Below, piece by piece: positions 22,299 through 46,956 of a stretch of DNA of 47,167 nt. Position numbers and translations under genes: made by a program. Below the pieces are notes generated by a model, which saw only the letters and a program-made list of their open reading frames with translations, was not told the origin of the DNA and did not search any database. Origin of the DNA: Candidatus Obscuribacterales bacterium (GTDB taxonomy: Bacteria > Cyanobacteriota > Vampirovibrionia > Obscuribacterales > Obscuribacteraceae); contig JAGVKB010000057.1 of assembly GCA_020050835.1 (NCBI GenBank), positions 1-47,167 of the forward strand, written 5' to 3'. Position 1 is the first letter of the stretch. Every line of letters begins with the position of its first letter.

Positions 22299-22377
22299 GG
22301 GCCTGGTTCTCCGGACATAAACCATTAAAGGTAGCGCCGGAAACCCTTAAAATTTCAACAGAAAGATTAAATCTGTT

Positions 22378-28600: not shown

Positions 28601-29086
28601 GGTTGACGGTAGCTGAACGTCTACTTGCTCCTCTCGTTGGATCCTTGTCCATGTAGTGGATGAAGCACCTTCTTCTGTACTATTCTCGTCACGCTTATAG
28701 TCGCCCCATCTGACGCTAACTTTCAGATCTCGCGTTTCTGGGGAAACTAGCACACTCAGGCCCATAGATGAAGGCAAATAACGAATGCGCGCCGCGGCCA
28801 CTTCAGGTGTATTTGCATCATCTGCACCTTGGGCATCTGTTACTTCATCAAGTTCATCAACGCTTTGCTCATCACCTTTCTGTTCTGGAGTTGCATCGAG
28901 GGGCACCAGAAATCCTGTCAGATACCACGTGGATGGGCGCTGATCCAGAACTTCGTTAAAATCTCCCGGTGATGCGGAGGTATGACCAGTAATTTCTCCC
29001 GGACCGATCAAATCAAGCTGGAGAGCGTCTGCTAGCTGCTCACGAACTTCTACGGGTGTCAATATAGTCTGCGTCATACTTTTCAT
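25643..29086 (-). CDS. drmA: DISARM helicase DrmA
   Basis: 1147 residues, the usual size for DrmA. A long N-terminal region (1-440) of the family precedes the helicase core: PTGGGKTEAY (Walker A at 451-460), a zinc-like insertion with CPWC (573-576) and CVNRSCDFF (601-609), DELH (688-691), STAT (728-731), then VGLDIPRLGLMVAFGQP and YIQATSRVGR (motifs V-VI, about 945-985). The ATG at 29086 follows AGGAT. It lies 15 bases behind drmMI. An A8 run on the coding strand (plus coordinates 28058-28065) is a possible slippage point but the frame is intact. Confidence 0.95.
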   Translation of the reverse strand: MKSMTQTILTPVEVREQLADALQLDLIGPGEITGHTSASPGDFNEVLDQRPSTWYLTGFLVPLDATPEQKGDEQSVDELDEVTDAQGADDANTPEVAAARIRYLPSSMGLSVLVSPETRDLKVSVRWGDYKRDENSTEEGASSTTWTRIQREEQVDVQLPSTLDGQPLTYDVPNSAGLTIVVSGKQLTTNAFEDHLVPGTKSVSIFLVNNRTPSPDEVKDEGFAFQAQLEIASERSFAARPDLRCLESNDWDDRVADLQYRDVFEFAVGHGIAIEAMAVDGACMNVRTRWIPKAEVERVAPTSIEGVTLEMELLSKIKDQSEVTAHLGAFEKNYLDWIAGQKKQIGSNWSKRKRETAQELLHRAELAAKRIGNGVKLLGADPMALDAFRIANLAMAMAARRRFGTMNGKDASTIDPPKWRPFQLAFVLMNLVGIAEPESEEREVVDLLFFPTGGGKTEAYLGLAAFTLVLRRLKNPGIASAGLSVLMRYTLRLLTLDQLSRASTLICALELERNRDVDKLGNWPFEIGLWVGKAATPNIIGEKGDTTPDSARARLRAYKGDDSKPSPIPLEACPWCGEKFRNTSFNLYPNPDYPTELRITCVNRSCDFFRDRPLPIAAVDEQLYRRLPCFMVATVDKFAALPWTGEVGKFFGHVQRYDDEGFYGPCEPMMGKPLPTGKLLPPELIIQDELHLISGPLGTIVGLYETALDELCSHKLGEKNIRAKIVASTATVRRAESQIRALFNRRLVDIFPPPGPDRRDSFFAETHTTAHSHARQYVGITAQGRSPKVIMMRVYLALLGAAQKLYSLQKKNDPDNAADPYMTLLGYFNSLRELGGARRLIEDEVGTRLSGYGSRKRVNEAQGLFKDRKIHYDVVELTSRISTDKVAEAKRRLELTFDQKDHHVDVAIATNMISVGLDIPRLGLMVAFGQPKTSSEYIQATSRVGRNHEKPGFVVTILNIHKPRDRSHYERFAAYHQTFYRSVEATSVTPFSPRALDRALAATLVGLVRQGHDAMTPALGAHQITPERGRLNFAIDAIISRAESHADLSPADKTRLKARVKDRSLDLLDEWSHIAADTANIGGVLQYQIEQGNARRLLYEFLNPDLQNESPRFRKFRANRSMRDVEPSVNLWMKNMDGIEVDDEDQD

Positions 29087-29101
29087 TTGCGATCATCCTA
29101 C

Positions 29102-32100
29102 TCATTCAATCTGCAATAACGTAAGTTGTTTGTCTGCCTCATCTTCGTCAGAAGTGTCGGCTGTCGGGGTTTGTTTCTTTGGTTTAGAAGATCTCTTCTT
29201 GCGTGTTGTCTTCGGACTTGACGATGATGGTCCTAAGAGATTTTCCTCATTGCCGCGGCGAATGTTCAGTTCAAGGAGTCGAGCGAATACTTCGTCTTTA
29301 ACTGCATCGCTCCATGCCCAGCGCCACGGCTTCCGACGAGTGCGTCTCGTTGGTGCCACTTCATCATCTTCTTCGTCATCATAGTCAAGGAAAAAATCGC
29401 AGGCGGGCATAATATCGCCCCATCCATAAGCGTCAAGGACGGCTTTATCCATCTTCTGATGAAGTTCACGAAGTTGCATAATTGGAGCCGAAGTATTGTT
29501 GGGATCATGAAAGCGGTTATAGGTTTTTGTTAATCCTTCATTGTTTTGTGTCATGAGCTGCTGCCGAAATTCGTAGTACTCTTGCCCGGCAACATTTAAA
29601 GCTTCATTTTCTTCAAAACCGATTGGGAAAGGAAAGGTTTCAAAACAGTCAGATGGGCCGTAGCGCATGTCGTCTTTGATTGAAGACGAGAAGAATCTTG
29701 CCCAGACCTCATGAATTCTAGACTGAAGAAGAGCAAAAGCAGAGTATGAATCGAAAGTAAAAACCACGGTCGATTCAGCAAAGACAGGACCTGTTTTTAC
29801 AAAAGCAAACGCACCTTGCTGACCATGTCTCGATAGCACCAACACACGGGAGAGGTCTTTGATGGCTTCGTGCAAGCCTGGTCGATCTCGGCACCATTGC
29901 CACCAATACTCCTTTAGCCTGCGTCCATCTGCTGTGTCATTCAATTCCATGCGTTCAGGCTTGACTCGTTCTTCGATTATCTGCATCAAGTCAGGCCATT
30001 CTCGTGCTCTGTCCTCAGTAAAAGGTGACAGATTTATTGCATACCTATGATGTGACTGGGTCGGGCTATTCAGCAGTTCCTCCCCGCCCAAATAGGGAAA
30101 TATTCGCTCTGCATTTCGTGGGTCTTTGGCGATTAGACGTTCCATTTCAGCCAAAGTATTAGCGGTACCACTCTGATCAGTATCGTCAAACGTGAAGCCC
30201 ATGCCGAGTAAAATGCTACCTTGATAGCTTTTGCCTTCATTGACTTTTAACTGTTTCGCATCATCATTTCCACCAGCATGATAGAGATAAGCAGTTATTG
30301 CAGGAACACTTCTTCCATCAAGGAGAAAAGGTGCTTCAAGATGTCCACGGTAAACGTGTGCAACACTGACGACTACGGCAGCATCGCCCGGCCACCTTAC
30401 GCGTTTGCGTGCGGAATATATGGTGCCTCCATTCGTACAAATCCATCTCAATCCGGTAGAACGGGTGTCGCCCTGACCAATAGTGTTTGTAGCAATGAGT
30501 CCGAACGCGCCATTCGATCTCAATAGCGCAAAGGCCCGTCGATAAAAGTGTGCCACCAGGTCGCTATTGCCATGCGATTCCTTATGCAAGGCTTTGAGCC
30601 AGTCAAGATATCCTTTGCGATTGCCGGCAATTAGAGTATTCTTGCCAGCAAATGGTGGATTGCCGACTATAGCATCGAAACCGCCGTTATCTCGATCGAA
30701 AACCTCTGGAAATTCGATCTCCCAATGAAATGGTTCAATTGGAAACGATCCTGAGCGCAATGCAATGATAGCGTCGGTCAAACTCTTGGTAGCACTAGTT
30801 TCCCCCTTAATGTCGTCAAGAGCAACTGAGACAAGTGCTAACTGATTGTTGCGTGTGTCGCTGCGGGATCGTTCTTTGTCGCCAGAGAAGAAGGCGGCAA
30901 CAATGCTATCGCCAACCATTCGAACAGGCTCTAAGGCCTTATCAGCATCCTGTAGCTTGACTTGCAACAATGGATAGAGGAACTTGTCAGGATTGTCCAA
31001 AATTTCCTTTCGAAATTTTGTTGCTGCTTGTACCGACTTCTTTATGCGTGTTTCGTCTATCGCACGTTGTCCCGTAGGCTGCCAATGGTATCGGATGATG
31101 TGATCCTTTGAAAGTCCAACAACTGAATCGCCGCATCTCAACGTGTGATCGAGAAAGGTGAAAGGGTGCTCTTTTGCAAGGGTCGCTAACCATAGCGAGA
31201 GCTTTGCCAGATTTACGGCCATGGGATTTCTATCAACCCCATACACACAGCGCTGTGCAACAAGTCGACGGGCATGTAAAATTTCGTCTTCGTCTACCGG
31301 AATGATCGGTATCGAATCATGAAAATTCCAAGCTCGTACCAACTCATCTCCCAGTTGTCGACAGCTTTCAACCAAGAAAGCGCCAGATCCCATGGCTGGA
31401 TCGCAGACCTTAATATCCAAAATCTGTTCTGGCGTTGGGTTGGGTCCAAGGGCTTCTACAATAGGCTTGAGAGTGGTTTTGACGATTGGTTCCGTCAAGG
31501 ACCTGGGGGTGTAGTGAGATCCGCTCTTCCGTCGTTCGTTCGAAGGCTGCAATATGATGTTGCCGCGTGGCACCGCGAACGGTGTAACGGATCTTGCAAT
31601 TTTCATTTCAAGTGCCGCCATCAAGTCTTGAACTGATTGAGCATCCTTCAGCGCGCGAGCTGGGACGCCTGATATCTTTTGATCGGTTAATTCGAGGAGC
31701 TTTTTTGCTCGATCACTTGGCTTAACCCGCAACAGAATTTCTAGATTTATTGTTGCTGGTGCGCCGTGCGGCTTCTTAGGTTTTATTGCTATTGAGGTTC
31801 CAGTAGCGACTTCAAGGGAGAATCCCATTATGGCTTCGTACACACTTCCAATTTGCTCGACATCGAGCGTGCGATAGCTGAGCCGCTCACTATCTAACAT
31901 CAGCAGGTTATTCAGGACACGAAACACTACTCCGTCAGGAACCTGAGGAATTGCGACGACCTGGAATTCAGTTGCAGAAGCACCTTCAAGAAAGGGGTAT
32001 ATGCTTGGATCGAATAGATGACCTTTGCGATCAGGAATTTGCAGATCACCGTGGGAACCACCCTCGAATACCATCCGAAACAAGGTAAGTAGCTGTGCCC

Positions 32101-33130
32101 ATGAACCGTATCGATGATCCATCGTGTCAGGATACCGACCTGCGTCCTCTCGCAGCCTTTCATACAACCTTGAAACAGAATAGTACTCACAATAAACTGA
32201 GGAATTGGATAACAGATTGCGGTCCTCTGCATACAAGATAAAGACGAGGCGCATAAGTACTGTCAGAAGTCCTGCATAAACCTGATTCGGATCCTTTTGT
32301 AAAACAGATTGAAGAAGCGCACCGCGAGCCTGGTCGTTCGCTGCCTGAAATCCGCGCAGAAGTTCAAATAAGGCTGCTAACACCTGTTCCGCCAGTTTGG
32401 TCGAAACCGTATTTTGATATCTTCGGCTATCAGAAAGGATTGCCGGTAATCGCTGATTCTCCTGTTGCTGCAGGAACAAGCTATCCGCAGAAAGCAACAG
32501 ATACAGTGCAGAAAGAATTGGCCTACCTGCGACAGAAATCATGTCTGATACAGAGAAGGTAATGTGTCCGCTGCTCTCGCCGCGAGGTGCATAAACTAGT
32601 CGAATCTGTTTAGAGTTGACCAGCAGCCCTATCGGTATCTCGGTTTCGCGAAGCAGTCGTTCAAACTTTGCTTGCGGGCTGGCATGCCATCCTTGCTTAG
32701 ATTCAACTGAGCTTTCATCGAACAAGGTTCCATTATCCAGAACCTGTATCAGAAGTTGCCATGGCGATTGTCCTTCCTTCGGCCTGAGCTCGGGCACAGC
32801 AAATGTTGGTTTCAGACATTCTTGGTATTCAGGTAAAAGAACCTCCAGCGACTTCAAGCCAGGATCTGGCGATGCTATTACTTCCACTAAGTCACTGGGC
32901 TGCCATTCAAGTACAGTACAAACAAACTGCCTGAAATCAATTATCCTTGGGATTGGCTCGTCATCGACATTCCTTTCCAAGCAAGAAAGGAACCTCTGCT
33001 GGACTGGTGCAACATTTCTGTTTATATACGCCTGAGCGTTCAATAAAGCAGGGACGGAGACGACGAGTCCAACAGGTTGAACAAAGCCGATCCATTCAAG
33101 ATGTGCCGCAGTTTGCGGATCGCGAGACAT
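29102..33130 (-). CDS. drmMI: DISARM N6-adenine DNA methyltransferase DrmMI
   Basis: 1342 residues. The frame opens at 33184, but I start at the ATG at 33130 because AGGAGT lies nine bases before it and this removes a 47-base overlap with drmD. The Eco57I/PglX-like architecture shows a large N-terminal region, motif I DPAMGSGAFL near 577-586, a second-half segment VYGVDRNPMAVNLAKLSLWL, and the catalytic NPPF at 824-827, diagnostic for N6-adenine methylation. The C-terminal 480 residues would recognise DNA. The last 60 residues are Lys/Ser/Asp-rich. It marks host DNA in class 1 DISARM. Confidence 0.95.
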   Translation of the reverse strand: MSRDPQTAAHLEWIGFVQPVGLVVSVPALLNAQAYINRNVAPVQQRFLSCLERNVDDEPIPRIIDFRQFVCTVLEWQPSDLVEVIASPDPGLKSLEVLLPEYQECLKPTFAVPELRPKEGQSPWQLLIQVLDNGTLFDESSVESKQGWHASPQAKFERLLRETEIPIGLLVNSKQIRLVYAPRGESSGHITFSVSDMISVAGRPILSALYLLLSADSLFLQQQENQRLPAILSDSRRYQNTVSTKLAEQVLAALFELLRGFQAANDQARGALLQSVLQKDPNQVYAGLLTVLMRLVFILYAEDRNLLSNSSVYCEYYSVSRLYERLREDAGRYPDTMDHRYGSWAQLLTLFRMVFEGGSHGDLQIPDRKGHLFDPSIYPFLEGASATEFQVVAIPQVPDGVVFRVLNNLLMLDSERLSYRTLDVEQIGSVYEAIMGFSLEVATGTSIAIKPKKPHGAPATINLEILLRVKPSDRAKKLLELTDQKISGVPARALKDAQSVQDLMAALEMKIARSVTPFAVPRGNIILQPSNERRKSGSHYTPRSLTEPIVKTTLKPIVEALGPNPTPEQILDIKVCDPAMGSGAFLVESCRQLGDELVRAWNFHDSIPIIPVDEDEILHARRLVAQRCVYGVDRNPMAVNLAKLSLWLATLAKEHPFTFLDHTLRCGDSVVGLSKDHIIRYHWQPTGQRAIDETRIKKSVQAATKFRKEILDNPDKFLYPLLQVKLQDADKALEPVRMVGDSIVAAFFSGDKERSRSDTRNNQLALVSVALDDIKGETSATKSLTDAIIALRSGSFPIEPFHWEIEFPEVFDRDNGGFDAIVGNPPFAGKNTLIAGNRKGYLDWLKALHKESHGNSDLVAHFYRRAFALLRSNGAFGLIATNTIGQGDTRSTGLRWICTNGGTIYSARKRVRWPGDAAVVVSVAHVYRGHLEAPFLLDGRSVPAITAYLYHAGGNDDAKQLKVNEGKSYQGSILLGMGFTFDDTDQSGTANTLAEMERLIAKDPRNAERIFPYLGGEELLNSPTQSHHRYAINLSPFTEDRAREWPDLMQIIEERVKPERMELNDTADGRRLKEYWWQWCRDRPGLHEAIKDLSRVLVLSRHGQQGAFAFVKTGPVFAESTVVFTFDSYSAFALLQSRIHEVWARFFSSSIKDDMRYGPSDCFETFPFPIGFEENEALNVAGQEYYEFRQQLMTQNNEGLTKTYNRFHDPNNTSAPIMQLRELHQKMDKAVLDAYGWGDIMPACDFFLDYDDEEDDEVAPTRRTRRKPWRWAWSDAVKDEVFARLLELNIRRGNEENLLGPSSSSPKTTRKKRSSKPKKQTPTADTSDEDEADKQLTLLQIE

Positions 33131-33137
33131 CCGTTTG

Positions 33138-36100
33138 TTACTCCTGTAATGCGGGAGAAAGGTAGACGAGTCCAACTGGTTCAATTCGCCGCGCCTTCAC
33201 TTCATACACTTGGCGAACTCTGTCCGGCTCGGTCAGTAATTCCTGTTCAAGGAAATCGAGGCGTTTGTCCCAATACTTTCTATTGGTCTCCAGCTGTTTG
33301 AACTCTTCATCGAGAAATTGGATCTTCAATTGAACAACATCCTTGTCATACTTGGCGATCGTTGTCCTGATGTGCTGCCTTTGGCTTTCCAGTATTTCGC
33401 GCATGGCCTTTGATTCGGCTTCAGCACGTCTACTCAGTTTTTCTTCCGCCTTTTGTGCATACTCATTTCCTCTTCCTTCGAGATGTTGGAGAAGTTCTTG
33501 TATGTCTTGAGGCGCGGCATTCCTATATTTCTCAGCGATCTCCCCGTCAATGCGTTTTCCATCGTCAAGCAGCGCGTCTTCGAGCATTTGCAATGTTTTC
33601 GTCTCTGCTTCCGTTGCGTAAGGCGAAAGCGGCTGTTTGCGATTCTCCGGTGCTGACCATCGAGCAGTAATTGGCACTAGTTCTTCATGTAATCTTGCTG
33701 CGGCATTACCATATAGACATAGACGCCCAATTAAGATGACTCTAGGAACGCCATCCTTAGTTTGTGCTAGACAAGCCCTAGATAGATCTCGATAAATAAA
33801 ACCCTGACAGTTGAATCGGCTTAATAGGCGTTGTACAACACGGTGCTCCAAATGCAGATGAACAACGCCATCATCTAGTTTGCTTGGCTCCTCGAACACG
33901 ACCGGCCTAACAACAGCTGTTCGTCTCCATTCCCACGGCTTTTCATCGCGTTTCTTCGGAGTGCGCAGTGTGTCTATCGTACCGGTCCAAGTAACATCCG
34001 CTCCTTCTCTTTCATCCAACGGGGGAAAGGTAAATTGGTCCAGATCACCTGGAGCATTACTTGCAGGGCAAATTTCTAAGGCTTTGGAACCCAGGAGTTC
34101 AAGTGCGCAAGAAATAGCCGAGCGAAACTGATCTTTGTTCAAGCCGATATTTTTTCTCGACTCATCCAGAAGCGTTTCTAGGTTCGCAATGTCAGAACGC
34201 AGCTCCTCTTTGCGCTTACGGGTGACGTCCAACTCTGCCTCAGTTGTTGTTCGTTTCTCGTTCTCGACACTTGCTGTGTCAATTTGTCGCTCTAAGTCGT
34301 TAATACTGTTTCTTCGTATACCATGCTCAAGCTTCTTGTGAAGATCAATTTCTACGACCTGTGACAAGCTGCCGAGTTCTTCCTTGATCGTCTCAGTTTT
34401 CCTGACCAAAGCCTTGAGGATTATGTCCTCCGGTCGTTGCGTATAGAGAAAGTAATGACAGAAAACTTCTGGCTCTGGTTGCAATTTTCGATCGATGCGT
34501 CCATTGCGCTGCTCCATTCTGGAAGGATTCCAGGGAACATCAAAGTGAAACAGGTTCCAACAATATGCTTGTAGATTGAGACCTTCCCGAGCCGCATCTG
34601 TGGCTAACAGTATCCTCACGGGATGCCTGTCGGGATCAGCATTGAAGGCCTTTTTTATTTCATCTCGATCCTTGGGAGGCGTTTGTCCGTGAAACACAGC
34701 AATTCTTTCGGATGCGTGATCGGATTTGGCAATAGCATTCTCAAGCTGTTGTTCGAGATAACGTCTAGTATCTTCGTACTCGGTAAAAATGATCGCCCGG
34801 GTTTTGTTCCATGGTGCCCCTTCATTGTCCAAGGAGCACATGTTCTTGTTGATCCAGGTAATTAGCGCTTTCACGCGAGCATCTGGTCTTCCCCGGCTGT
34901 CTTCGGCAATGGCGCTCATCTCATCAAGCAAAGCTTGTTCCCTCGCGAACAGCTTTGCTGCGTAATCATCATTTGCGCTGCCCATGGTCGCCATGGTTAC
35001 AATTTCTACCTGCTCGTCTTCTTCATTTTCCAATGCAAGATCTGGCGCATCCAGGCGCTCGTCGTTCGCGTCAATCGATTGCCCTATCAAGTCATATTTT
35101 GGCGGCAGTTCAGGTTTGCTTATCTTCTTCGCTTGTGATTGCTCCCATTGCTTTTTGACGGTCTTTCGGTGGACATGTAAGGTCCTCGCAAATGCTTCAA
35201 TCGACGACAGCAACCGCTGCTGGAGTCCAGATATAAGTAGGCTTGCCGCAGCTTGGACCTTTTTACTTTCAGAATTCAGTCGTTCTTCTCTGACTGCTCG
35301 ATATTGATCGAGCAGTCGAGGGAGTTTAAGTTCCGGCGAGTCTTCCGAGAGTCCGTCAATAGTTACTGGCTGAACGGTTCTCTTTGGTAGCCCCCCAACA
35401 ATTTCACGCAAGTCCTCTTTCAAACGCCGGACCAAGATTTTGTCTAGCATTTTCGGTTGGACTGGAACACCGCGACAAAAACGCTGCGGATCGAGCAGTT
35501 CCAACAAGGCTGAAAAGCTGTTGGAGTGCCCATTGTGAGGGGTGGCAGACAAGAATAGTCTGTGCTCGAAACGCGGAGCGAGATCTCGAATAGCTTTGGT
35601 TAGAAGCGAATCAACCGCATACTTTTGGCCGCTTGCGGGGGCAGCTGCGTGCGCCTCATCAAAAATGAACATACTCCCGCTTCGCAGTGTGCCAAGCCAG
35701 TCACGAAGGGAGCCTACATAGTTTTCGTCGATTAGCAGTCGATGCGAAATCAGAAACCGTGAATGCGTTGTCCAAGGGTTGATTCCAAAGCCTCTCTCCC
35801 TCCTGATTCTGCTCATATAATCACGATCGAGGATTTCAAATGTCAAACCGAATCGCGATTCAAGTTCTTCTTTCCATTGCAGCAGCATCGACGGGGGACA
35901 GGACACGACGATCTCTTTAACCTTTCGTCGTAGCAATAGTTCTCGTGCAATCAGCCCCGCTTCAATCGTCTTGCCGAGCCCTACGTCATCTGCGATAAAT
36001 AGATTGACTCTCGGAAGGAGAAGCGCCTTTTTTAGCGGTTCCAATTGATATGCATCTATTCTGATGCCGGAGCGAAATGGCGATTGAAAAAGTCTTGGGT

Positions 36101-36407
36101 CTGTTGAAGTGACACAATTCCAACGAAGGGTATTGAAAAATGCGGCGAACATTTTCGGTTGATCAAAACCGCGCTTGGCAATGCAGTCCCAGTCCTCGGC
36201 AGAAATTACCTGAGCATCAATTTCTCGTTCCCAAAGAACTTCGAGCGGTTGCCCTTGATTATCGTCATCAAGGCAAGATAGCTTGACGAGCGTGCTTTCG
36301 CCTTTTTTGGGTGGCGAAATAGTTTCTTCGACGAGGTAAAGCCGCTGGCGGACTCGAGCAATTTGGCCCGGCACTGGAATCGGCGCTGCCTGCAAAGTGA
36401 CAACCAT
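33138..36407 (-). CDS. drmD: DISARM SNF2-like helicase DrmD
   Basis: 1089 residues. IADDVGLGKTIEAGLIA holds Walker A (GLGKT, 143-147), FIFDEAH is at 247-253, LSATPHNGHSNSF is motif III, and FHFDVPWNPSRMEQRNGRIDR is the SNF2/RapA-type motif V-VI region near 640. A coiled coil (about 690-770) and a long charged helical C-terminus (about 950-1065) follow. Size and position directly before drmMI identify DrmD, the marker of class 1 DISARM. A 110-base gap with a TATAAT precedes its start, whereas downstream genes are nearly contiguous. Confidence 0.94.
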   Translation of the reverse strand: MVVTLQAAPIPVPGQIARVRQRLYLVEETISPPKKGESTLVKLSCLDDDNQGQPLEVLWEREIDAQVISAEDWDCIAKRGFDQPKMFAAFFNTLRWNCVTSTDPRLFQSPFRSGIRIDAYQLEPLKKALLLPRVNLFIADDVGLGKTIEAGLIARELLLRRKVKEIVVSCPPSMLLQWKEELESRFGLTFEILDRDYMSRIRRERGFGINPWTTHSRFLISHRLLIDENYVGSLRDWLGTLRSGSMFIFDEAHAAAPASGQKYAVDSLLTKAIRDLAPRFEHRLFLSATPHNGHSNSFSALLELLDPQRFCRGVPVQPKMLDKILVRRLKEDLREIVGGLPKRTVQPVTIDGLSEDSPELKLPRLLDQYRAVREERLNSESKKVQAAASLLISGLQQRLLSSIEAFARTLHVHRKTVKKQWEQSQAKKISKPELPPKYDLIGQSIDANDERLDAPDLALENEEDEQVEIVTMATMGSANDDYAAKLFAREQALLDEMSAIAEDSRGRPDARVKALITWINKNMCSLDNEGAPWNKTRAIIFTEYEDTRRYLEQQLENAIAKSDHASERIAVFHGQTPPKDRDEIKKAFNADPDRHPVRILLATDAAREGLNLQAYCWNLFHFDVPWNPSRMEQRNGRIDRKLQPEPEVFCHYFLYTQRPEDIILKALVRKTETIKEELGSLSQVVEIDLHKKLEHGIRRNSINDLERQIDTASVENEKRTTTEAELDVTRKRKEELRSDIANLETLLDESRKNIGLNKDQFRSAISCALELLGSKALEICPASNAPGDLDQFTFPPLDEREGADVTWTGTIDTLRTPKKRDEKPWEWRRTAVVRPVVFEEPSKLDDGVVHLHLEHRVVQRLLSRFNCQGFIYRDLSRACLAQTKDGVPRVILIGRLCLYGNAAARLHEELVPITARWSAPENRKQPLSPYATEAETKTLQMLEDALLDDGKRIDGEIAEKYRNAAPQDIQELLQHLEGRGNEYAQKAEEKLSRRAEAESKAMREILESQRQHIRTTIAKYDKDVVQLKIQFLDEEFKQLETNRKYWDKRLDFLEQELLTEPDRVRQVYEVKARRIEPVGLVYLSPALQE

Positions 36408-36517: not shown

Positions 36518-39500
36518 TTAGGGATTGCTGTCAAGAGCAGTGTCGGTTTCAAGGCGGAGAAGCTCTCTAAGTTCGTCATCGGTCATTAGTAACAACTGCA
36601 ATTCGTGTAAATGGTCATGCGTGAAGGTTATCTGGCAGAGCTTGCCGACGAGAAACAAATCGAAGCGATAGTACTGAAGACGCTGAGACAGATCGCAGTC
36701 TCGGATTTGCGTTACGAACGTTCTTAGTTTTACAGAAGGAAACCCGAATTCGTATTGAGCAGCATGTGTTGCACAGAGGCACAGTGAGTTTGCGCCACTT
36801 TCAATCCATTCGCCCACCTTCTTCGCCTTGATTATGTTATGTGATTGAAAGAATGGCCGTCCGCCGGCAGTCGGAAAGGAATCATTGCAAATTTGGCACT
36901 TTCCGTCGTACCAAGCCATGAGCGCCGCACGGACTCCACTATCAGGTTCTTTCCATACCTTACGGGACTTATGCTCGTAGCGCATGTATTCTGGTGGCTC
37001 GTTTGCTCGTGCATCGAGAATGTCTTGACCTTTGAGTATGGTGCGACGCTGAGGATTTCGAGTTGGCAGCGGTGGCGGCAAAGGACTATATTCACCGCCC
37101 TTTCTATCTCGCTTCTCGTTCAAATATTTTTCCACATCGGGTTGCATAGCACCCAAGTCGTGATCAGAAGCATCATTTCCATTTCCTGAATCTGGGCCTG
37201 AAATTGGTGGCATAGCTGGTGAACGCAACAATGGCTTGCCTGGTGGTGATACATCGGGTTCTTTGTCTGAGTCTTGGTCGGTATCCGGCTCGAAATAATG
37301 TGCATCCTCGGGCAAGTCGTGATCGTCACCAAGAGCTGTTGCGGTGGTGCCTTCAACACCATGCCTTGGTGCGGTAGTTCTTTTGACCACATCATAGCCC
37401 CAACGATGAAGAACCTGGCTCGCCTCTTCAAAATCTTCGGCATCCAAAAGCCGTTCGAGAGGAGCAACTATCGTGCAACTGTCAACTTCAGGATTCAAGA
37501 AAATTGCAATCTGATGCGCAAGATCGGTAACCGAGTAGTCTTTTTCGACAACAAACAATTTGGAGTTTTCGTCATCCAGAAAGGCAGTGGTGGGAAGTGG
37601 TTCTGAGACCGTAAGTCGTCTTGCCTTCTCCTTGTCACCCATGGGCAGGTATAGAGCTTCAAGAATGGAGTCAACTGCATAAACTGTTAGATCTTCAAAT
37701 AGCTCCTGTGAAAGGTGTATCTCACTTGTATGTCCAGCTTGTAGAACGACCTGCTTGATGAGGGGGCTCAATTCATTTAGCCAGAGTTCAAGTTCGTCGT
37801 AAGGGCGAGCGTTGCCTTGTATCTTTGGTTCACGGACGACAGCCTTACTAAGTGATCGAACTCCCAATAGGGAAAAGAATGATGCTGTGTGCTCTTCTTT
37901 CGGAATCAAGAATTGGTCAATCTGTCCGCCGATGAGCTGGATGTATTTCAATTTGTCCTTGAATAACAGATCTTTGGGTAGAAAGAGAAGGTTGTCTTTC
38001 TCGTTCGCAATTGTCTTGGCAGCTTTGAGGGGAGCCAGATCGAAAGGCTTCTGTCCACGGACAAATCTTGACGCCAACTCGGCATAACAGTAGCTAAGAA
38101 CCTCATTTGCTTGATCGTCAATCGGACGATTCTTAGATCCGAACTCGTCTGCAATGGAGAGAACAACGTCGCGAAAATCCATCGCGGTTGGATCTTCTTT
38201 GGCTCCCAGGTCATTCAGAAGAGTGTGATAGGGCTTGAATTTCTCATCTAGCGTTACTCGCCAACGTCCTAGTCTGTGCGATTTCCAAAGTAGTTCGGAC
38301 GGTTTTCGAAAGTTACCGTCAATAAAAATGCAGTGAGTGTCTTGCAACTCGCCGACGATATAGTCTCTGTCTGTGCTCATCTGACGCTGTAAGAACTTGT
38401 AGATATCGATGTGTGGCGTCTTATGCGTTTCTCGACAGTGAAGCAGATGGTTGATCACGAGGTCAACGGAAGGGTCGTCCTTGATGCCGAAAGCATCGCG
38501 TATCTCCTTTTTGAGAGCATCAGAGAATGCGACAAACTTGCCTTGGCTTTCGAAGAGTTTCGCGTTTGCTCTTGTGTAAAGATCGGTAGGTTTGTACCAG
38601 TTGCGGCGGTCGGACAATTCCGGGAGCCACCGTAACGAACGGAGCTTCCCTATTTCATTGCGATCTTCGATGCTTAAATCGGTATAGTTTTCAGCAAGGT
38701 ACTTGTATATTTTTTGAATCTGGCTAATAGATTCATCCGTTGGAGGTACAGCAACTAGGCTCATTATCCTGGCGCAGATATCGGAAATTCGAGGAGAGCT
38801 TTCAACGCCAAGGAGTTCCAAAAATGATCGAATATCATTCGACTTCCCTGTACCAGAAACCTTCACGTATTTAGCGAGAGGTCCAAGCATCTCTGCTACT
38901 TCTGGAGAATTGAAATACACTTGTCCTGGTCGGCGACGAACAGTATCGGTACAGGGAACAAGGCGACACTCTTCTAATGCCGTCATGATATCTCGTCGAT
39001 TTCTTATTTCCTCCATGCTGTCGGCCAACCATTCGATAACTTCGCGAAGTTGTTCATCCGGAATGTCTCGTTCGGTGTTGAGATATGGGCAAAGTTTCTT
39101 GGAGATAAGGAGAGACCAATCGATTTCTCTGGCACCCAGCTCGCGCCAAAAAATGAGAACTTCCTTGCTGATTCCGTCTGTCTTGACGACTTCGGCAAGA
39201 CCAAAAGGATCCTTGAATCTAATCGACGGTAGCATCAGATCGGGTAAAGGCAGGAAGGTATTGCCAGACGGATAGATTGGCAATTTAACAAGTGCCGCAT
39301 GCCATTGAAGATCGAGTTGTTCTGCGCGACGCGAGAACCAATAATGTAGGTCATTGATCTCAGTTCCTAGAGCAGAGAGATCATTCAAGACACGCTTTCC
39401 AGATGACTGAAAAGCATCGTGAAAGGCTCTGATCACGTCTGTTGGACTAAGGTCAGGAACTCGGTTGTAGATTTGGGATTCGTCTGCGAACATTTCATCA

Positions 39501-41125
39501 CGGTCGGCAAATGTGAGTTTGTCTGTGACCGGGGAGAAGAGTTTAAGAAGCTTCTTGTCGATGCGAAATAGCTTTCCGAGCTGTCTAATTCGTCCTGACG
39601 TCGAGATTCCAATAGGCATTGATAGGATGAGCTGCTGTGCCTGATTCTCTGACTTGCCTCGCCTGAAGATATGGTCTATTAGCTTGTACAGCTTCCTTCG
39701 TTGGCTCTTGTCGCTAATCCAAGCCGGTGAAGATTTGACTGGCATGTCGTTTTGAACAGGAGCTTTGCGGAAGGCATTGGCAATGTCCTCCAGATTTATC
39801 CGTTGCACGTCGAACTGTGTAAGCAGTGTTTCGTGCTTGCTCAGATCAGCGTGATTGACATGTATGGACAGCGAAGTCAACGCGTCGCTTGATTCGAGTT
39901 CAACTTTGTCGGAAACAAGTCTAATTTCCTCTGGGTAGAACCATTTGCCTTGTGATGAATACATGATCCTTGATTTCGGAGCATGCTCTTTTGCGTGAGT
40001 CCAAAAAACGGAGAGATGATTGTTACTCCTAGCAGCAAAGAGGTTCTCCAAAGAACGAAAGAAGAGGGTATGTCCGACCGCTGGGGCAAGAGTGCGCATT
40101 GAATCAGCAAAGAGATAGGCGGCAGCTTTTAAGGCTGCGTTGTTCCATTCAACCTTATGTTTGCTACCATCGAAATCGATATGCTTTCGATCCGGCACCG
40201 GAAAGAAGTCTGCATTAATGTGAAAGTTGAAGCCTGTGTGATGTTCGGTCGGGAGATACGAAAAAATGAGCCCATTGGTCTTCACGTCGTGGTCTGCATT
40301 GTAAGCAATGGTGACTTCAGTCGACTTCTTCGGCGGTATCATCGGATACTTTGTGCGTAATTGCTGGGCAACATCAGCAAATGATTTGCGCAGGATCAGC
40401 CACTTTTGTCGGTCTCCCTTTTCATTCTCGATTTCGAAGGTGGTCGAGCTCTGCCTGTGGCGTATGGCTGCTGCGATAAGCTGCCCCTTTGACAGAACCT
40501 CAATACGGTCGACATGTTTAACGAACAGGAGAATGTGTGGCAGTTCTTTAACAAGTTCTTCCTGGAAGGCCCTAATTTGATTTGGTGATAGTTTTGTCTG
40601 TTCCAACTCCTGGCGAAGGTGAGTGTCGTCGAAGACCCACGGCAGTGCGATCCTTGTGTGATCGCAATTCGGTAAAGCATGTGGACTCTTTTCTAGAACT
40701 TCGATTCGCTGGTGTTCGGGATTTTCTGGAATTAGCTTCCAGAGCACTTCTTGCGAATGAATCTCGGGAGTGTCAGTAAATCCATAAACAGAAATAAAGC
40801 CGATACCAAACGTTCCGATTGTGTCATCTTCATCCCGCTTACCAGCTGACGCCACGTCTCGCATTCGATGAAAGTCGCAAGGTACGCCTTTCTGTGTCTT
40901 GCGCGAGCATATCTTCGCACCTACGTCTGTGCACTTCTGAAAGACGGACGAATTGGACACTATCAGTCTATCCTTGGAGAAATCGAACTTTATCCATATT
41001 GCTTTAGCGTCATCTGCATTCTGAAGAAGTTCAGAACACATTGTGCGAAAACCATGCAGGCTCTGGAGTTGCGTCCGGAGAAAGTTCAGATAGTCCACAC
41101 CTTGAGATAGGAACTGGCGATTCAT
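36518..41125 (-). CDS. Giant GHKL (sacsin/MORC-like) ATPase with C-terminal HNH-like motif
   Basis: 1535 residues. The N-terminal Bergerat ATP-binding fold shows CSELLQNADDAKAIWIKF (N-box, 30-47) and DTIGTFGIGFISVY (G1 box, 101-114), the sacsin/Hsp90/MORC type. About 250-1200 is a long helical region without a recognised domain; an acidic/proline linker follows (about 1265-1375). The end carries CQIC (1410-1413), SHNII with H1429, N1446, then LCLCATHAAQYEFG with H1454: the order of an HNH nuclease zinc finger, lacking the usual double His. It overlaps the upstream helicase by ATGA and precedes drmD. It is not part of textbook DISARM. Nuclease activity is inferred only. Confidence 0.8.
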   Translation of the reverse strand: MNRQFLSQGVDYLNFLRTQLQSLHGFRTMCSELLQNADDAKAIWIKFDFSKDRLIVSNSSVFQKCTDVGAKICSRKTQKGVPCDFHRMRDVASAGKRDEDDTIGTFGIGFISVYGFTDTPEIHSQEVLWKLIPENPEHQRIEVLEKSPHALPNCDHTRIALPWVFDDTHLRQELEQTKLSPNQIRAFQEELVKELPHILLFVKHVDRIEVLSKGQLIAAAIRHRQSSTTFEIENEKGDRQKWLILRKSFADVAQQLRTKYPMIPPKKSTEVTIAYNADHDVKTNGLIFSYLPTEHHTGFNFHINADFFPVPDRKHIDFDGSKHKVEWNNAALKAAAYLFADSMRTLAPAVGHTLFFRSLENLFAARSNNHLSVFWTHAKEHAPKSRIMYSSQGKWFYPEEIRLVSDKVELESSDALTSLSIHVNHADLSKHETLLTQFDVQRINLEDIANAFRKAPVQNDMPVKSSPAWISDKSQRRKLYKLIDHIFRRGKSENQAQQLILSMPIGISTSGRIRQLGKLFRIDKKLLKLFSPVTDKLTFADRDEMFADESQIYNRVPDLSPTDVIRAFHDAFQSSGKRVLNDLSALGTEINDLHYWFSRRAEQLDLQWHAALVKLPIYPSGNTFLPLPDLMLPSIRFKDPFGLAEVVKTDGISKEVLIFWRELGAREIDWSLLISKKLCPYLNTERDIPDEQLREVIEWLADSMEEIRNRRDIMTALEECRLVPCTDTVRRRPGQVYFNSPEVAEMLGPLAKYVKVSGTGKSNDIRSFLELLGVESSPRISDICARIMSLVAVPPTDESISQIQKIYKYLAENYTDLSIEDRNEIGKLRSLRWLPELSDRRNWYKPTDLYTRANAKLFESQGKFVAFSDALKKEIRDAFGIKDDPSVDLVINHLLHCRETHKTPHIDIYKFLQRQMSTDRDYIVGELQDTHCIFIDGNFRKPSELLWKSHRLGRWRVTLDEKFKPYHTLLNDLGAKEDPTAMDFRDVVLSIADEFGSKNRPIDDQANEVLSYCYAELASRFVRGQKPFDLAPLKAAKTIANEKDNLLFLPKDLLFKDKLKYIQLIGGQIDQFLIPKEEHTASFFSLLGVRSLSKAVVREPKIQGNARPYDELELWLNELSPLIKQVVLQAGHTSEIHLSQELFEDLTVYAVDSILEALYLPMGDKEKARRLTVSEPLPTTAFLDDENSKLFVVEKDYSVTDLAHQIAIFLNPEVDSCTIVAPLERLLDAEDFEEASQVLHRWGYDVVKRTTAPRHGVEGTTATALGDDHDLPEDAHYFEPDTDQDSDKEPDVSPPGKPLLRSPAMPPISGPDSGNGNDASDHDLGAMQPDVEKYLNEKRDRKGGEYSPLPPPLPTRNPQRRTILKGQDILDARANEPPEYMRYEHKSRKVWKEPDSGVRAALMAWYDGKCQICNDSFPTAGGRPFFQSHNIIKAKKVGEWIESGANSLCLCATHAAQYEFGFPSVKLRTFVTQIRDCDLSQRLQYYRFDLFLVGKLCQITFTHDHLHELQLLLMTDDELRELLRLETDTALDSNP

Positions 41126-44100
41126 GATCTCACAACCTCAATGACGCCGGCAGCAATGCGCTTCGTCGTGATGTCGCATTGTGCTGTTTCGTCTAACTGT
41201 CGGAGTTTAGTGGAAAGCTCGCGTTCGATTCGAGACTGTTCAGATTCTTTCATTCGTTTGATTTTTGGCTCTTTCATCTGGGCAATTTCAGATTGCAATC
41301 GCTCTAATCTCCGGGAGAAGAAAGCAGAAATCGATGCACTGCGACGTGCGCGCACTAGTTCATTGACAGCAATCATTCGTTCAAGTTCTAGCCTTCGTCG
41401 ACTGTCCAAGTCTGCGTCAAGGCCATGTAGAGCAGACTCAATGTCTGTGCGGCTGGCGCCAGTGACATTGGCATTTGGGAGAAGACCGCCTATGTGGCTG
41501 ATGAGTCGTTTTGACATGTCGGGGACAATAACCTTCTTATCTATGTTCCAGGCGGCTCCGACCAATCGTGTCTCTCGATTAGCACATACGTATTGCCAAA
41601 GATCGCAAACGAAAATGTATCGTCCTGGCTCGACATCGTCTTTGGGTAGTAGAACGCTAGAGACCAAGAGCGCGTCTGAGCTTGTTTGCCAGTATTCAAC
41701 GGCGGCTCTGGCTAGCGGATGAACGGCAGTCACGAATGGCAAGCTCCGCTCGCGAACAGCGGTGTCTTGATCAAATGTCAGTGAAATTGATGGTTCTTCG
41801 GAGTCCAACCATCTTAGGAATGCTGAATCCTGTTGTGCGTAAAAAGTCTTGGTGTGGCCGTGCAGGAGTGTTGCGATTGAGGCTTTGCCTTGTTTATTCA
41901 CTTTGAGCTGCCAGATTTTTTCTTGGTCCTCAGTCAACGTGCCTTGAATTTCTTGAAGTGCAATGAAGAACCGAACCATGTGTTCGATATCGTGTGGACT
42001 GACAGTTCGACCGTCGGCCTGTAAGGCATCCAATTCTTCAAAAAGTAGTTGATCTAATCCAACTATGTTTTCTCGATCAGACTCAAGGCGTCTGTATTCC
42101 TCGGCAACACGTATTGCATTGTCGAGCAGTTGTTTAACACGAGCTTCTTGCTCGGCGTTCGTTAGATTGGGATCAACAGCGGTTTTTGTCAGTTCGGGAA
42201 CGAGATCGCCGAGAACCTCCTCTAGGTCGCCGAGAGTATGCCTAAAGATATCCAACCGCTCGTAACAGCGGTAGAAGATTCGATGATCAACTGTGCCTGG
42301 AGTAACAAAATTGAAGATGAGAACCTTCGGGCTCTTTTGACCGAAGCGGTCAATTCTTCCAATCCGTTGTTCCAGGCGCATCGGATTCCATGGAATGTCA
42401 TAATTTACGAGTCGGTCACAGAACTCATAGTCGAGTCCTTCGCATCCCACCTCTGACGAGAGCAGAATATCAATTGCGTTAGTATCATTTCGAGGCAGTC
42501 TGAACCTGGCACGAAGCTGGTCTCGGTCGAAGTCGGGAGTCTTGCCGGTGATGACTGCAACACGGTAGCCCTGGGCTGCTAGATTCTTTCGTAAGTATTC
42601 CAATGTGTGCAAGAAGAAGGAGAAGATCAGTAGCTTTCCAGGCTCGCCCTCCATGGTCGGTTTCGCAATTTTGCTGACGAGGGTATCTAGTTTCGGATCA
42701 TCTGCTGGTAATGCTGCCGCCAATGTTCTAATCTCATCCGCGAGCTCGACAAGGTTGTTGTCAAAATCGACTCCTTCATCGTCTTCGTCGAAACCATCTG
42801 AGACAGCAGACGTGATGAATCGGCCGGTGCGTAGGAATGAGTCTAGAAAACTAAGTAGAGCAGGTAAGCAGCTTGCGGCTTGGCGCTGCAACATGTCCGA
42901 TATCAGGGCGACGATTCGTGGATGATACTTCAGAAGTAGCAATTGTTTGCGGAACTCTATGATCTTGTCATAGAGCTGTTTTTGTTGTGGTGTGAATTCG
43001 ACCTCCACCGTTTTTGGATCGCGAACAGTGAATTCGCCAATATCTCGGCGTCTTGTTCGGTTGACTAAATGCGCAAGAGTATGGGTCTCTTCTAGATCTC
43101 TTAGGCATCTAATTCGCTCGTCAGCAGAGAGAGCAGAAACGCTGCTTGACTCTAATTTCTGGAGACAACTCGAAAAACGCGGATCTGGTTCTAAGATCCG
43201 TTTTCCCCAACTTGTAGCAATAGCCTTTCGGAGTGCTTCTGCAGCGGAGAGGGACCAATTTGCTGTCTGATCACCTGCACGAACATAACGCATGGCCTCA
43301 AGGATGTATGTATTTGGTTCGACCATTTCATAGAAGGTCGATTGATCAAGAAATTGGTCTGGACGCAGAAGGCTTAATAAGGAGAAGAGATTTACTGAAC
43401 CGACGTGGACAGGAGTTGCTGATAAAAATACGACTCCGTCTGCGTTGTCACAAAGATATCTGAGAAGGCGGTGTGAGCTGGTGGTTGTATTTCTGACATG
43501 GTGTGCTTCGTCGAGAATAACCAAGTCAAATTGTGGAGGCGGTGATAGATTTGCGAGCCCAATCATGTTTTTGGTACCGTCCAGATACTCCGTTTGACGA
43601 AACAATTCCAAGTTGACTATTGCGCGGCCGAATTGCTCTGGCCATTCGCCCTCAAGATGTGTTTCTTTAAGGCAATGCATCAAAGTATCTGCTGACAGGA
43701 CTGTGAAATTCTCGTCGAAGCGCCTTAGTTCAGCACGCCATTTGCTGGTAAGTGCTTTGGGGCAAAGAATGAGTACTCGTCGCAAGTTTCTTCGAGCATT
43801 CAACTCTTTAAGGATTAGTCCGGCTTCGATTGTTTTGCCAACTCCTACTTCGTCTGCTATGAGAATCCGGGGCTGGTCGGCGGCCAGAAACCGAAGAAGG
43901 GGCTTGAATTGAAAAGGAATGAATTTGATTCTGGCGGCATGGAGTGCATAAAGTGCGTCTGTTTGTGGATTTGATAGACGAGCACTCGTAAGCCTGGCTC
44001 TGAATTCCGGTGTCGTAAGCCATTGACGTTCAGCTAGCGCTCGGACTACAGCTTGTTCAGTGGACTCCTGAATGACTTGTATTAACTGATCTTCTGCGTA

Positions 44101-44235
44101 GACTGCAAAATCAGCATTTCCATGAAAAACTCGATATCGGCTTATCGAGCCGATCGGCGTTAAGATCTCCAGTACAGGGCCGACACGTTTACGGTCGGCG
44201 CGAAGAGCAACCAAATCTCCAACTTTGAATGCCAT
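41122..44235 (-). CDS. Second SNF2/RapA-type helicase, first gene of the extended DISARM operon
   Basis: 1037 residues. A small N-terminal beta-rich domain ([20 protein letters not shown]) is followed by [17 protein letters not shown] (Walker A 131-135), [10 protein letters not shown] (DEAH 242-245), [14 protein letters not shown] (motif III), and [23 protein letters not shown]-type motifs near 635-658. A charged coiled coil fills the last 150 residues. It differs from DrmD in its N-terminus, motif I (GVGKT against GLGKT) and RIGRIDR against RNGRIDR, so it is a distant paralogue, not a recent duplicate. The overlap with the GHKL gene implies joint function, perhaps as translocase and gated nuclease. 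Confidence 0.88.
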   Translation of the reverse strand: [1037 protein letters not shown]

Positions 44236-44403: not shown

Positions 44404-45219
44404 TCATTTCAGTTTGGCTGCACTTGTCGAGCAACTCTTTATGAAAAACTCCAGCACTTCCGTGTTCTTGACCCAGCCGGATGTGTGTCCAGGCTCGAAG
44501 ATGTTAATGGCGAATATGAACCGCTGCGGTAAGACGCCGTTCTGCAGCTCGTCGAACCAAATCCATCCCTTTGTCTTTGCATGATCTTCCAGAGGTGATT
44601 CCGGCTCGGGAAATGAAACCGGAATCGTTTTGCCATTCTGAATCGCATGGTCAAACTCGTAAGATTCGCAGTCATCCCCGTGCTGGAAGCCTTCTGTATC
44701 AATCATCTTGGCGGACGACATTGCGTTCAACGGATAGTCCCAGACATTCTGAAAGAGCAATTCGACCAAAGTGAAGCGTTTGATGTCGCCGCTGTATTTG
44801 CTTTTTAGCGGAACGTTTAGCAACAGCCGGCGAAATGTCAGCGCCATGTATTTGCCCTTCAACGTGAGATCGTTGATGCTATCGAAGGTTTCGAGCACCG
44901 GCGACTCGTCATCAAGTTTTCTTTTGCCGGTTGCCGACTCAATGAGTACTTCTGCTCCGGCCTGCCAATGTTCAGTCTTTGTTCGCTCCATCGTCGGCTC
45001 CGTTTGTTTCTTCTCTTGGGTCTCAGTTCTGGTGATATCGGTAGCGTCATAAGCGGCGGTCAGGAGCAGGCTTGCACGCATTACAAGGTCTTGAAGCTTT
45101 GCGTGGTGCTGTCGGTCCGGATCGAAAAACGCCGTGGCTTGCGCATAGCGGGTGGTAATAGTCTCCGGCGTTGCATCAGGTTCGAGTCCGAGCAACTGTA
45201 GTGCAGTGTCCTTGTTCAT
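44404..45219 (-). CDS. J-domain-like protein with degenerate HPD motif
   Basis: 271 residues from the ATG at 45219; the frame is open 110 codons further but that part looks non-coding. NKDTALQLLGLEPDATPETI, then TRYAQATAFFDPDRQHHAKL, has the shape of a J domain with DPD where DnaJ has HPD, so stimulation of DnaK is doubtful. From about 80 onward (LTLKGKYMALTFRRLLLNVP...) no domain is known to me. It lies directly upstream of the defence operon on the same strand, and divergently from a TPR gene. Confidence 0.62.
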   Translation of the reverse strand: MNKDTALQLLGLEPDATPETITTRYAQATAFFDPDRQHHAKLQDLVMRASLLLTAAYDATDITRTETQEKKQTEPTMERTKTEHWQAGAEVLIESATGKRKLDDESPVLETFDSINDLTLKGKYMALTFRRLLLNVPLKSKYSGDIKRFTLVELLFQNVWDYPLNAMSSAKMIDTEGFQHGDDCESYEFDHAIQNGKTIPVSFPEPESPLEDHAKTKGWIWFDELQNGVLPQRFIFAINIFEPGHTSGWVKNTEVLEFFIKSCSTSAAKLK

Positions 45220-45366
45220 CCTCTCGCGGGCTTCCTGGAAGTTATATGCCCATTGTAATTTGGGTGACTGCAGAATAGGCGCAGCGGGACGGGTTGCCAA
45301 CATGCAGGGACCCGGACTGCGGTCGGGCACAATGTATTGGGACGGAAGAGATTGCAGGTTGATGTC

Positions 45367-45939
45367 ATGCTCTTGACTCGTTATTTCATAGCAGTTGGAG
45401 TTTCCATGTTGTTGCTCGCGGGCGCCTGGGCGAAAGGCACAGGCGATCCGCTGGGCTTCCCTGGCGTCGGCAGCCGCACGGCCTGGGAAGAAGCTTGCAC
45501 GATCAATACACGCGCCACCCAAGAGATGCAGGACGGAAAAAACAAACAAGCGATCACTTTACTGAAGCAGGCGATAGCGAAGTATCCGCAGGAGACTGGC
45601 TTTTATGACAACCTGGGCCAGTGCTATCTTGCCACCGGCGACAGCAAGGCAGCAGAAGCGGCGTACAGGCAAGCGGTGCAACTGTCCGATAAGTACAGCG
45701 TCAAATATCCAGACTCTTACTTAAGCCTGGCGCGGCTTTGCGAGAAGCGGGGCGCCGTGAAAGAGGCGGACGGATTATACAAGAAAGCAACCAAGCTGAA
45801 TGATGCATCGCTAGAAGCATGGCAAGCATACGCTGTCTTTCTTGACTCGCAGCGACGACCGGAGAGTGTGTTCGCCAAAAAGAGAGCCGCAGAGCTTGAG
45901 CAGAGCCACAAGCAGTTTTTGAAACGGCTGGCTAAATGA
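45367..45939 (+). CDS. Exported TPR-repeat protein
   Basis: 190 residues from the ATG at 45367, chosen because MLLTRYFIAVGVSMLLLAGAW is a good signal peptide. Three TPR-type helix pairs follow: KNKQAITLLKQAIAKYPQ, NLGQCYLATGDSKAAEAAYR, and LARLCEKRGAVKEADGLYKK, with the usual G/A-Y-A spacing. It is a scaffold for protein contacts outside the cytoplasm. It is 18 bases ahead of a J-like membrane protein gene on the same strand. Confidence 0.82.
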   Translation: MLLTRYFIAVGVSMLLLAGAWAKGTGDPLGFPGVGSRTAWEEACTINTRATQEMQDGKNKQAITLLKQAIAKYPQETGFYDNLGQCYLATGDSKAAEAAYRQAVQLSDKYSVKYPDSYLSLARLCEKRGAVKEADGLYKKATKLNDASLEAWQAYAVFLDSQRRPESVFAKKRAAELEQSHKQFLKRLAK

Positions 45940-45957: not shown

Positions 45958-46956
45958 GTGAATGAAACAGAAAAGACGGCCGCTTACGAGACACTCGGGC
46001 TAAAGCCGGGTGCGAGTGAGGCAGAGGTAAAGGCAGCATACAAGAAGCTGCTTGCGTTCTGGGCTGACGAAGGCGGCCTGAGCGCGCCGCTAAAGAAAAT
46101 CGCAGCCGACATGCGCGCAAAAATTGAACAAGCTCATACAGTTCTGACTTCTACCACCACCGGCACGAGCTCCGGTAGCACCACATCTGGTGGCACCGCT
46201 CCAGGGCCCCAGGGCGCTGGTTCCGGCAAAGGTAAAAACGATCCCTGGGCCTGGGTTTTTGGCATCTTGCTTGTGGTGGCTGGGTTGTTCTGGTACGACG
46301 AAGTTAAAACGGAACACGACAAAAACGAAAGAAACCAACGGGAGAAACAACAAGAGAAGCCGATAGAGACAAAGCCTATCGAGACAAAACCAGTGCCGTC
46401 AGCTCCCCCGGATTATGTGATTCCGTACCTGCACAATGGTGTCAAAGAGCGAGTAGTGAAATGGACAACCGAGGATCTAACAACACCTGGATCAACGCGG
46501 ATCGGCGTGCTTGGTTATGACAATCAAGATCGCCTGGTCAACTATCTGCAGTTCTACAGTCAGGAAAGTTCAAGCTCCTGGAGCTTCTACGATCAGTACG
46601 TAGTGAAAGTTTCCGACGACGGCTTGCAGGTCGGCGTCCAACATTTTCAACCGACGTGGCAATCGGGCTCGATTGTTTTCAAAGATCAACGAAACGTCTC
46701 TGAGGTCGGTGACGTGCTTGTGCAATCGACGGTTTACTACTACCACCTGAAGGGCAACAGGTACTTGCTTGATAGCGTGGTTGTATCAACGCCATTCACC
46801 GAGAACAAAGATGGCTTGCAAATAAAGCGCAGCTCCGACGATCAGATCTTGGAAGTGCTGAGGCAACCCAACGGCAACGTCATAAACATGGAGGCTAACC
46901 GCAGCTCCTTGCCTCACATGTTTGATCTCTGGCGCTTCTTTGGCCAGACACACTGA
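45958..46956 (+). CDS. Membrane protein with N-terminal J-like domain
   Basis: 332 residues from a GTG preceded by GGAGG. TAAYETLGLKPGASEAEVKA...YKKLLAFWADE (8-37) is a J-like segment without HPD, ending in KIEQAHTVL near 55-63. A Thr/Ser/Gly-rich linker (64-94) leads to a transmembrane helix at 97-113 (PWAWVFGILLVVAGLFW), then a Lys/Glu stalk and an exported domain (145-332) rich in Tyr/Trp with no known match. The J-like part would be cytoplasmic. It probably forms a pair with the upstream TPR protein. Confidence 0.75.
   Translation: MNETEKTAAYETLGLKPGASEAEVKAAYKKLLAFWADEGGLSAPLKKIAADMRAKIEQAHTVLTSTTTGTSSGSTTSGGTAPGPQGAGSGKGKNDPWAWVFGILLVVAGLFWYDEVKTEHDKNERNQREKQQEKPIETKPIETKPVPSAPPDYVIPYLHNGVKERVVKWTTEDLTTPGSTRIGVLGYDNQDRLVNYLQFYSQESSSSWSFYDQYVVKVSDDGLQVGVQHFQPTWQSGSIVFKDQRNVSEVGDVLVQSTVYYYHLKGNRYLLDSVVVSTPFTENKDGLQIKRSSDDQILEVLRQPNGNVINMEANRSSLPHMFDLWRFFGQTH

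Follow-up and report, generated by a model that had tools for sequence, protein, structure and literature searches.

P0001, a 1535-residue protein encoded at 36518-41125 (minus strand) of the window, i.e., the whole 47,167-nucleotide stretch of DNA analysed, is a sacsin-type GHKL ATPase with a degenerate HNH C-terminus, and its system combines a Tiamat-like body, a McrA-like dead domain, and a RapA-like helicase. Sequence comparison and structure prediction together show this architecture, the loss of the nuclease site, the retention of the zinc site, and the co-inheritance with a helicase. The explanation that we favour, with moderate confidence, is a helicase-GHKL defence module in which the dead HNH domain would couple the clamp to the helicase and/or to DNA, a coupling that we infer. 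Because the HNH fold is kept but the cutting residues are lost, the C-terminus of P0001 is probably a motor adaptor and not a pair of scissors.

The gene was delimited as an open reading frame and by profile matches. The first-pass annotation, made from the letters alone, gave its coordinates and length correctly; the 1535-residue frame fills the minus strand, and the plus strand of 36518-41125 has many stops. The gene starts with ATG and overlaps by 4 nt the stop codon of the upstream helicase gene (41122-44235). The GHKL nucleotide-binding domain (residues 14-134; 40724-41086, minus strand) was located using Pfam, the four-sequence alignment A1 and the solved sacsin structure. Both the N-box ELLQNADDA (E32...N36) and the G1 box GTFGIGF named by the annotation are present, and E32, N36, G104 and F106-F110 are invariant in A1. 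The assignment to the sacsin type also holds: the N-terminus is matched by Pfam SACS (E 1.1e-20), by the solved sacsin SR1 structure 5v47 (E 7.5e-10), and by the NCBIfam sacsin-like domain. By these sequence matches, the SR1/SACS ATP-binding domain is present and the N-terminus is a sacsin-type GHKL ATPase.

The PADLOC profile of TmtA (Tiamat), PDLC03969, spans residues 3-1306 of the 1535 (E 4.3e-279) and ends before the C-terminal finger. The fingerless relatives that were checked end in NOV_C/DUF3883 (L014 and others), NucS_C, an SF1 helicase, or an intact HNH; a NOV_C/DUF3883 C-terminus, as in the fingerless clade, was not found in P0001 by Pfam. L052, a relative of only 1052 aa, was modelled over its full length; the model has a mean pLDDT of 83.4, resembles Hsp90, MutL and sacsin structures, and contains a low-confidence linker preceding the finger.

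The C-terminal 175 residues of P0001 (1361-1535; 36521-37045, minus strand) have, according to profile comparison and modelling, a McrA/TagI-type HNH (beta-beta-alpha) fold, with a match beyond chance. This assignment rests on four lines of evidence. A profile of 37 related C-termini compared with the PDB matched EcoKMcrA (6ghc, E 8.8e-10), TagI (6ghs, E 3e-4) and ScoMcrA (0.01). The AlphaFold2 model of this region, built with 33 sequences, has a pLDDT of 91.5 and places strands at 1427-1430 and 1447-1450, followed by a helix at 1452-1461. The top Foldseek match of the model is EcoKMcrA (probability 1.00); the top three rows are two chains of EcoKMcrA and TagI, and other HNH domains make up most of the high rows. 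In VIA-align, TagI scored Z 8.5 (103 residues, 3.4 A) and EcoKMcrA Z 6.9. The HNH-like far end proposed by the first-pass annotation, together with the comparison of a predicted structure to HNH folds that it had suggested, is thus borne out at the level of the fold. The zinc-finger core comprises residues 1406-1461 (36743-36910, minus strand) in the finger alignment. It is followed by a conserved beta-hairpin and helix, located by the same alignment and the AlphaFold2 model (residues 1484-1518; 36572-36676, minus strand), in which H1505 (window 36611-36613) is invariant in 37 of 37 fingers.

The fate of the active site is different from that of the fold. In the alignment to TagI and EcoKMcrA, N1446 corresponds to the HNH Asn, N1430 occupies the general-base (first His) position, and A1455 stands at the position of the second HNH His, a metal ligand. 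H1429 lies one residue ahead of the general-base position. H1454 completes the structural zinc site (CxxC...CxxC/H) as its fourth ligand, after C1410, C1413 and C1451. By this alignment, the first-pass annotation had the places of the CxxC (C1410/C1413), H1429, N1446 and H1454 right, and N1446 is indeed the HNH Asn; it erred in taking H1429 and H1454 for catalytic His. In TagI, according to the available text of PMC6212794, conservation and mutagenesis show the two His and the Asn to be indispensable, the Asn having no direct catalytic role. Conservation among related fingers also goes against a catalytic reading: His is found at position 1429 in P0001 alone (1/38), at the general-base position 1430 in 2/38 and at the second-His position 1455 in 1/38, and Asn at 1446 in 29/38. 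Homologues without the catalytic His are what the annotation itself had named as contrary to its proposal. The zinc ligands are kept: C1410 in 38/38, C1413 in 37/38, C1451 in 37/37, and position 1454 as Cys in 29 fingers and His in 8. The tetrad is whole in all 37 untruncated fingers, and the sole incomplete one (L089) ends at a contig end. The caveat of the annotation, a purely structural zinc finger, is supported. An active HNH in P0001 was rejected on the loss of catalytic residues in the 38-sequence alignment, and the finger is almost certainly not an active HNH nuclease; that N1446, with H1429 and E1459 of P0001 itself, might allow an unusual active site is only remotely conceivable.

The partner gene, identified as an open reading frame with profile matches, encodes a SNF2/RapA-type helicase of 1037 aa (P0002; 41122-44235, minus strand). 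Its family motifs are kept: Walker A GVGKT (131-135), DEAH (242-245), and motif VI (Q623-R630). P0002 resembles DrmD, in that its best PADLOC match is PDLC02623, a model labelled DrmD; it scores 365 bits versus the NCBIfam DrmD cut-off of 610, and the locus has a separate DrmD. A nuclease hidden in the helicase was considered and discarded, since no conserved catalytic set beyond H839-P840-L841 was noticed in the C-terminal third, which is a weak test.

We surveyed the pairing of finger and helicase in a sample that consisted of the best 80 of 319 matches from a contig profile scan with alignment A1, four named plasmid loci that carry the pair, and further fetched loci. Because the best 80 of 319 matches were taken, the frequencies hold for that sample only. 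GHKL proteins were evaluable (n = 69) if they were at least 800 aa long, were complete at the 3' end and had 3.3 kb or more of upstream sequence; a helicase was scored within 4 kb, and that of G024 was assigned by hand from the overlapping locus L008. The finger HMM threshold was 1e-5, and L007, with an intact HNH (E 9.8e-5), was thereby counted as fingerless. The 69 proteins, from the best 80 of 319 and the extra loci, divide into 32 with finger and helicase and 37 with neither, finger alone and helicase alone each being found in 0, a split that is not phylogenetically independent and that relies on a finger HMM built from 28 fingers of the same loci. Finger GHKL and helicase are the sole families common to all 31 pair loci, and the pair recurs in many phyla, in bacteria and in one archaeon. 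As a rule, the helicase is first and on the same strand; GHKL is first in L078, and the two genes are tail-to-tail (convergent) in G024. In 23 of 29 cases the first GHKL gene overlaps the helicase gene or is at most 10 nt away. Outside the training set, two of three finger proteins with context have a helicase (L105, L106), and outside the sample it accompanies 0/9 complete fingerless proteins (L094-L100, L103, L104); L101, with a helicase and an 813-aa GHKL ending near a contig end, was left out of these outside counts. P0001 and the helicase very probably work as a functional pair.

Several loci deserve separate mention. A viral contig (L102:7914-11123) carries a lone finger-type GHKL with no P0002-type helicase in the 19 kb examined, an exception to the pairing. 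This GHKL may be an orphaned defence gene, or it may act as a decoy of the bacterial pair. In L047, L048 and L083, a single helicase gene precedes two finger GHKL genes that differ from each other, which suggests GHKL heterodimers. A third conserved gene was sought and rejected: an upstream gene of 176-210 aa is found in only 8 of 31 loci, all of one alphaproteobacterial helicase clade (e.g., L011:11297-11827), and the one tested had no PADLOC match. A contig scan with P0001 alone gave no confirmed relative, a phylum sample of 386 genomes (E<=1e-30) gave nothing besides the window's own match, and an order-level sample had a match in 2/53, the window's own included.

Trees of the ATPase and helicase domains point to different histories. 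The GHKL-domain tree, which was built quickly and is weak at some branches, has 64 rows, namely 63 of the 69 evaluable proteins and L080; six, mostly near-copies and one fragment, were omitted by hand. In this tree, the ATPase bodies of the window and G024 are sisters (97*), within a group otherwise made up of 22 fingerless TmtA-type proteins (99*), and the starred branches force at least five changes of the finger-plus-helicase state. The independent-pairs count made on this tree, with one trait entered twice, is a number of contrasts and no statistical test. In the helicase tree, the helicase of the window clusters with those of Nostoc and Syntrophobacterales (96*), and that of G024, which is 65% identical to L051, with Phycisphaerales and other helicases; these are two different clades, whose helicases partner other GHKL types. 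Since the ATPase body of P0001 sits in a fingerless Tiamat clade, the finger and helicase look, on these trees, like a transferable module. Pairwise distances were compared for 24 pair loci, leaving out multi-GHKL loci and loci absent from the tree. Finger and helicase distances correlate with r 0.77 (partial r 0.61 after removing the body), and finger and own-body distances with r 0.68 (partial r 0.40); both correlations are significant, beyond 2000 permutations, and can be inflated by shared ancestry. These values fit a finger matched to the helicase in trans more than to the body in cis.

The pair adjoins a complete class 1 DISARM system at 23044-36407, which begins 110 nt downstream of P0001 in the same direction. 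All five genes are on the minus strand: drmD (33138-36407; P0003), the class 1 DISARM helicase (NCBIfam DISARM_DrmD 1089 bits, cut-off 610; PADLOC); drmMI, the adenine methylase (29102-33184; P0004; PADLOC); the helicase gene drmA (25643-29086; P0005) and drmB (23832-25643; P0006), both found by PADLOC and NCBIfam; and drmC, a PLD-type nuclease (23044-23835; P0007; PADLOC, Pfam, NCBIfam). No boundary between the pair and drmD emerged from scans for promoters and terminators: there are 3 promoter-like sites versus 8.9 expected, none of them between the two genes. In G024, the pair is near a class 1 DISARM, with the Lamassu genes LmuA, LmuC and LmuB (L009:6232-9895) in between; in Nostoc (L067), it is directly upstream of a class 2-type drmA-drmB, with a DrmMII-like methylase gene close by. 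Overall, DISARM is present in the examined flank of 3/31 pair loci versus 0/37 fingerless proteins (p 0.09, with unequal flanks and manually entered counts). The linkage between the pair and DISARM is a lead, not a proof.

These observations bear on several alternative explanations. The first-pass annotation had read P0001 as an ATP-gated DNA cutter, in which GHKL closure switches on cutting by the finger. The HNH fold is real (AlphaFold2, Foldseek, VIA-align), P0001 has N1446 and one His (H1429), a Halorubrum relative carries an intact HNH_2 on a sacsin-like GHKL, and a GHKL-gated nuclease, VcSduA, has been proposed in the available text of PMC12137116. However, the reading is unsupported for P0001 because the nuclease residues are lost across fingers, with N1430 and A1455 in place of the catalytic His that so few fingers retain, and Pfam (E<=0.1) finds no HNH domain in P0001; we consider it highly improbable. 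The Halorubrum plasmid protein (P0010, L007:7809-12494; Pfam 42.9 bits versus a cut-off of 21) has no P0002-type helicase within the 16.8 kb examined; because its HNH_2 is intact, a GHKL-HNH cutter may exist elsewhere, as its sequence suggests, and not in P0001. An ordinary Tiamat variant acting alone, with helicase and DISARM as mere island neighbours, would account for the TmtA match over residues 3-1306 (E 4e-279) and for the TmtA-type body clade, but not for a helicase that recurs with the finger in numerous phyla and three different gene orders, and the profile match ends before the finger; this appears quite unlikely.

An accessory role in DISARM, by which the pair, as part of an extended operon, would feed unwound DNA to DrmAB/DrmC, draws on the seven co-directional genes of the window (helicase, ATPase and five drm genes, never more than 110 nt apart) and on the similar proximity in G024, despite the intervening Lamassu, and upstream of drmA-drmB in Nostoc. 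With DISARM at 3/31 pair loci versus 0/37 (p 0.09), and most pairs standing alone, we regard it as unlikely. The dead HNH might instead read modified or distorted DNA as a target recognition device, without touching the helicase. Its descent from the modification-dependent nucleases EcoKMcrA and TagI is compatible with this possibility, as is the dead HNH of yeast Tcd enzymes, a likely inactive C-terminal domain described as relevant for tRNA binding in the available text of PMC13139853. Yet McrA and TagI enzymes read the modification by other domains (PMC6212794, available text), and DNA reading alone leaves the helicase link unexplained; such a finger is somewhat less improbable than a DISARM accessory, and still doubtful.

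The helicase-GHKL module, our preferred explanation, could work as follows. P0001 would form one half, the ATPase, of a module of two genes, in which a SNF2/RapA-type DNA translocase is followed by an Hsp90/sacsin-like GHKL protein. The GHKL protein would dimerise and close as an ATP-gated clamp, the dead HNH domain would serve as a non-cutting adaptor binding helicase and/or DNA, and the clamp would engage DNA where the helicase runs or stalls. Since the pair contains no recognised nuclease, we propose that interference would consist of a roadblock, the stripping of invader DNA, or its delivery to nucleases encoded in the island, here DrmC. An anti-phage role of the pair is likely, and there is an even chance that the finger acts as a helicase/DNA adaptor. 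More tentatively, at slightly below even, the pair may represent an immune system of two genes that is widespread. In it, a killed HNH, repurposed for docking, would link an Hsp90-like clamp ATPase with a SNF2/RapA translocase. Finger and helicase would make up an effector module that can be exchanged, that has taken the place of an in-cis nuclease on one or more Tiamat bodies, and that can combine with DISARM.

Comparison with known systems shows what is shared and what is particular. Tiamat is a single-gene system. A 2023 survey, in its available part, lists its mechanism as unknown. P0001 shares with TmtA the sacsin-type GHKL, the PADLOC profile and the body clade, but it has a dead HNH C-terminus, not the NOV_C/DUF3883 of checked fingerless relatives, and a helicase partner. 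With the HNH domains of EcoKMcrA and TagI, its finger shares the fold, the zinc-ligand spacing and the Asn; in contrast to them, it lacks both catalytic His and a recognised modified-base domain, and it is fused to a GHKL ATPase. A class 1 DISARM directly adjoins the pair, and P0002 resembles DrmD, but it falls short of the DrmD cut-off and DISARM has its own DrmD. In the available text of Iyer 2008 (PMC2292703), MORC/paraMORC operons in defence neighbourhoods place GHKL ATPases next to helicases of superfamily II, some of them SWI2/SNF2; the C-termini named there are RE-fold, TIR or uncharacterised, with neither a dead HNH finger nor a sacsin-type family. VcSduA (GHKL Shedu) has a GHKL domain and a C-terminal effector domain, as P0001 does, whereas its fused PD-(D/E)XK nuclease is active (PMC12137116, available text), and the nuclease fold of P0001 is dead, with the helicase a separate gene. 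In the available, mostly open-access, parts of the literature searched, the MORC/paraMORC operons with SWI2/SNF2 helicases and VcSduA are the nearest described systems, and the finger-GHKL/helicase pair is neither described nor named.

Defence islands repeatedly contain sacsin-like GHKL proteins, and one large GHKL class in which the nuclease is dead and the helicase partner constant makes the question of what GHKL gates testable: a helicase in trans here, a fused nuclease in others. It should be noted for annotation that the HNH-like C-terminus of this class does not denote a nuclease, and that the best PADLOC match of the partner helicase is labelled DrmD, yet it is not the DrmD of DISARM. 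The remainder of the island contains further genes of interest: a TOTE-type primase-like protein (5741-7537, minus strand), defence-type ABC-three-component CTD6 and AAA_23 proteins (12498-16026, plus strand), an AbiEi/AbiEii pair (18085-19853, minus strand), and an odd chimeric ORF with a DUF772 transposase N-terminal part followed by a TIGR04255 domain (21120-22325, minus strand). By the sacsin-like module, two genes at 44404-45549 (minus strand) and 45958-46956 (plus strand) have weak DnaJ-like matches, both below the cut-off (Pfam E 0.073 and 1.6e-4).
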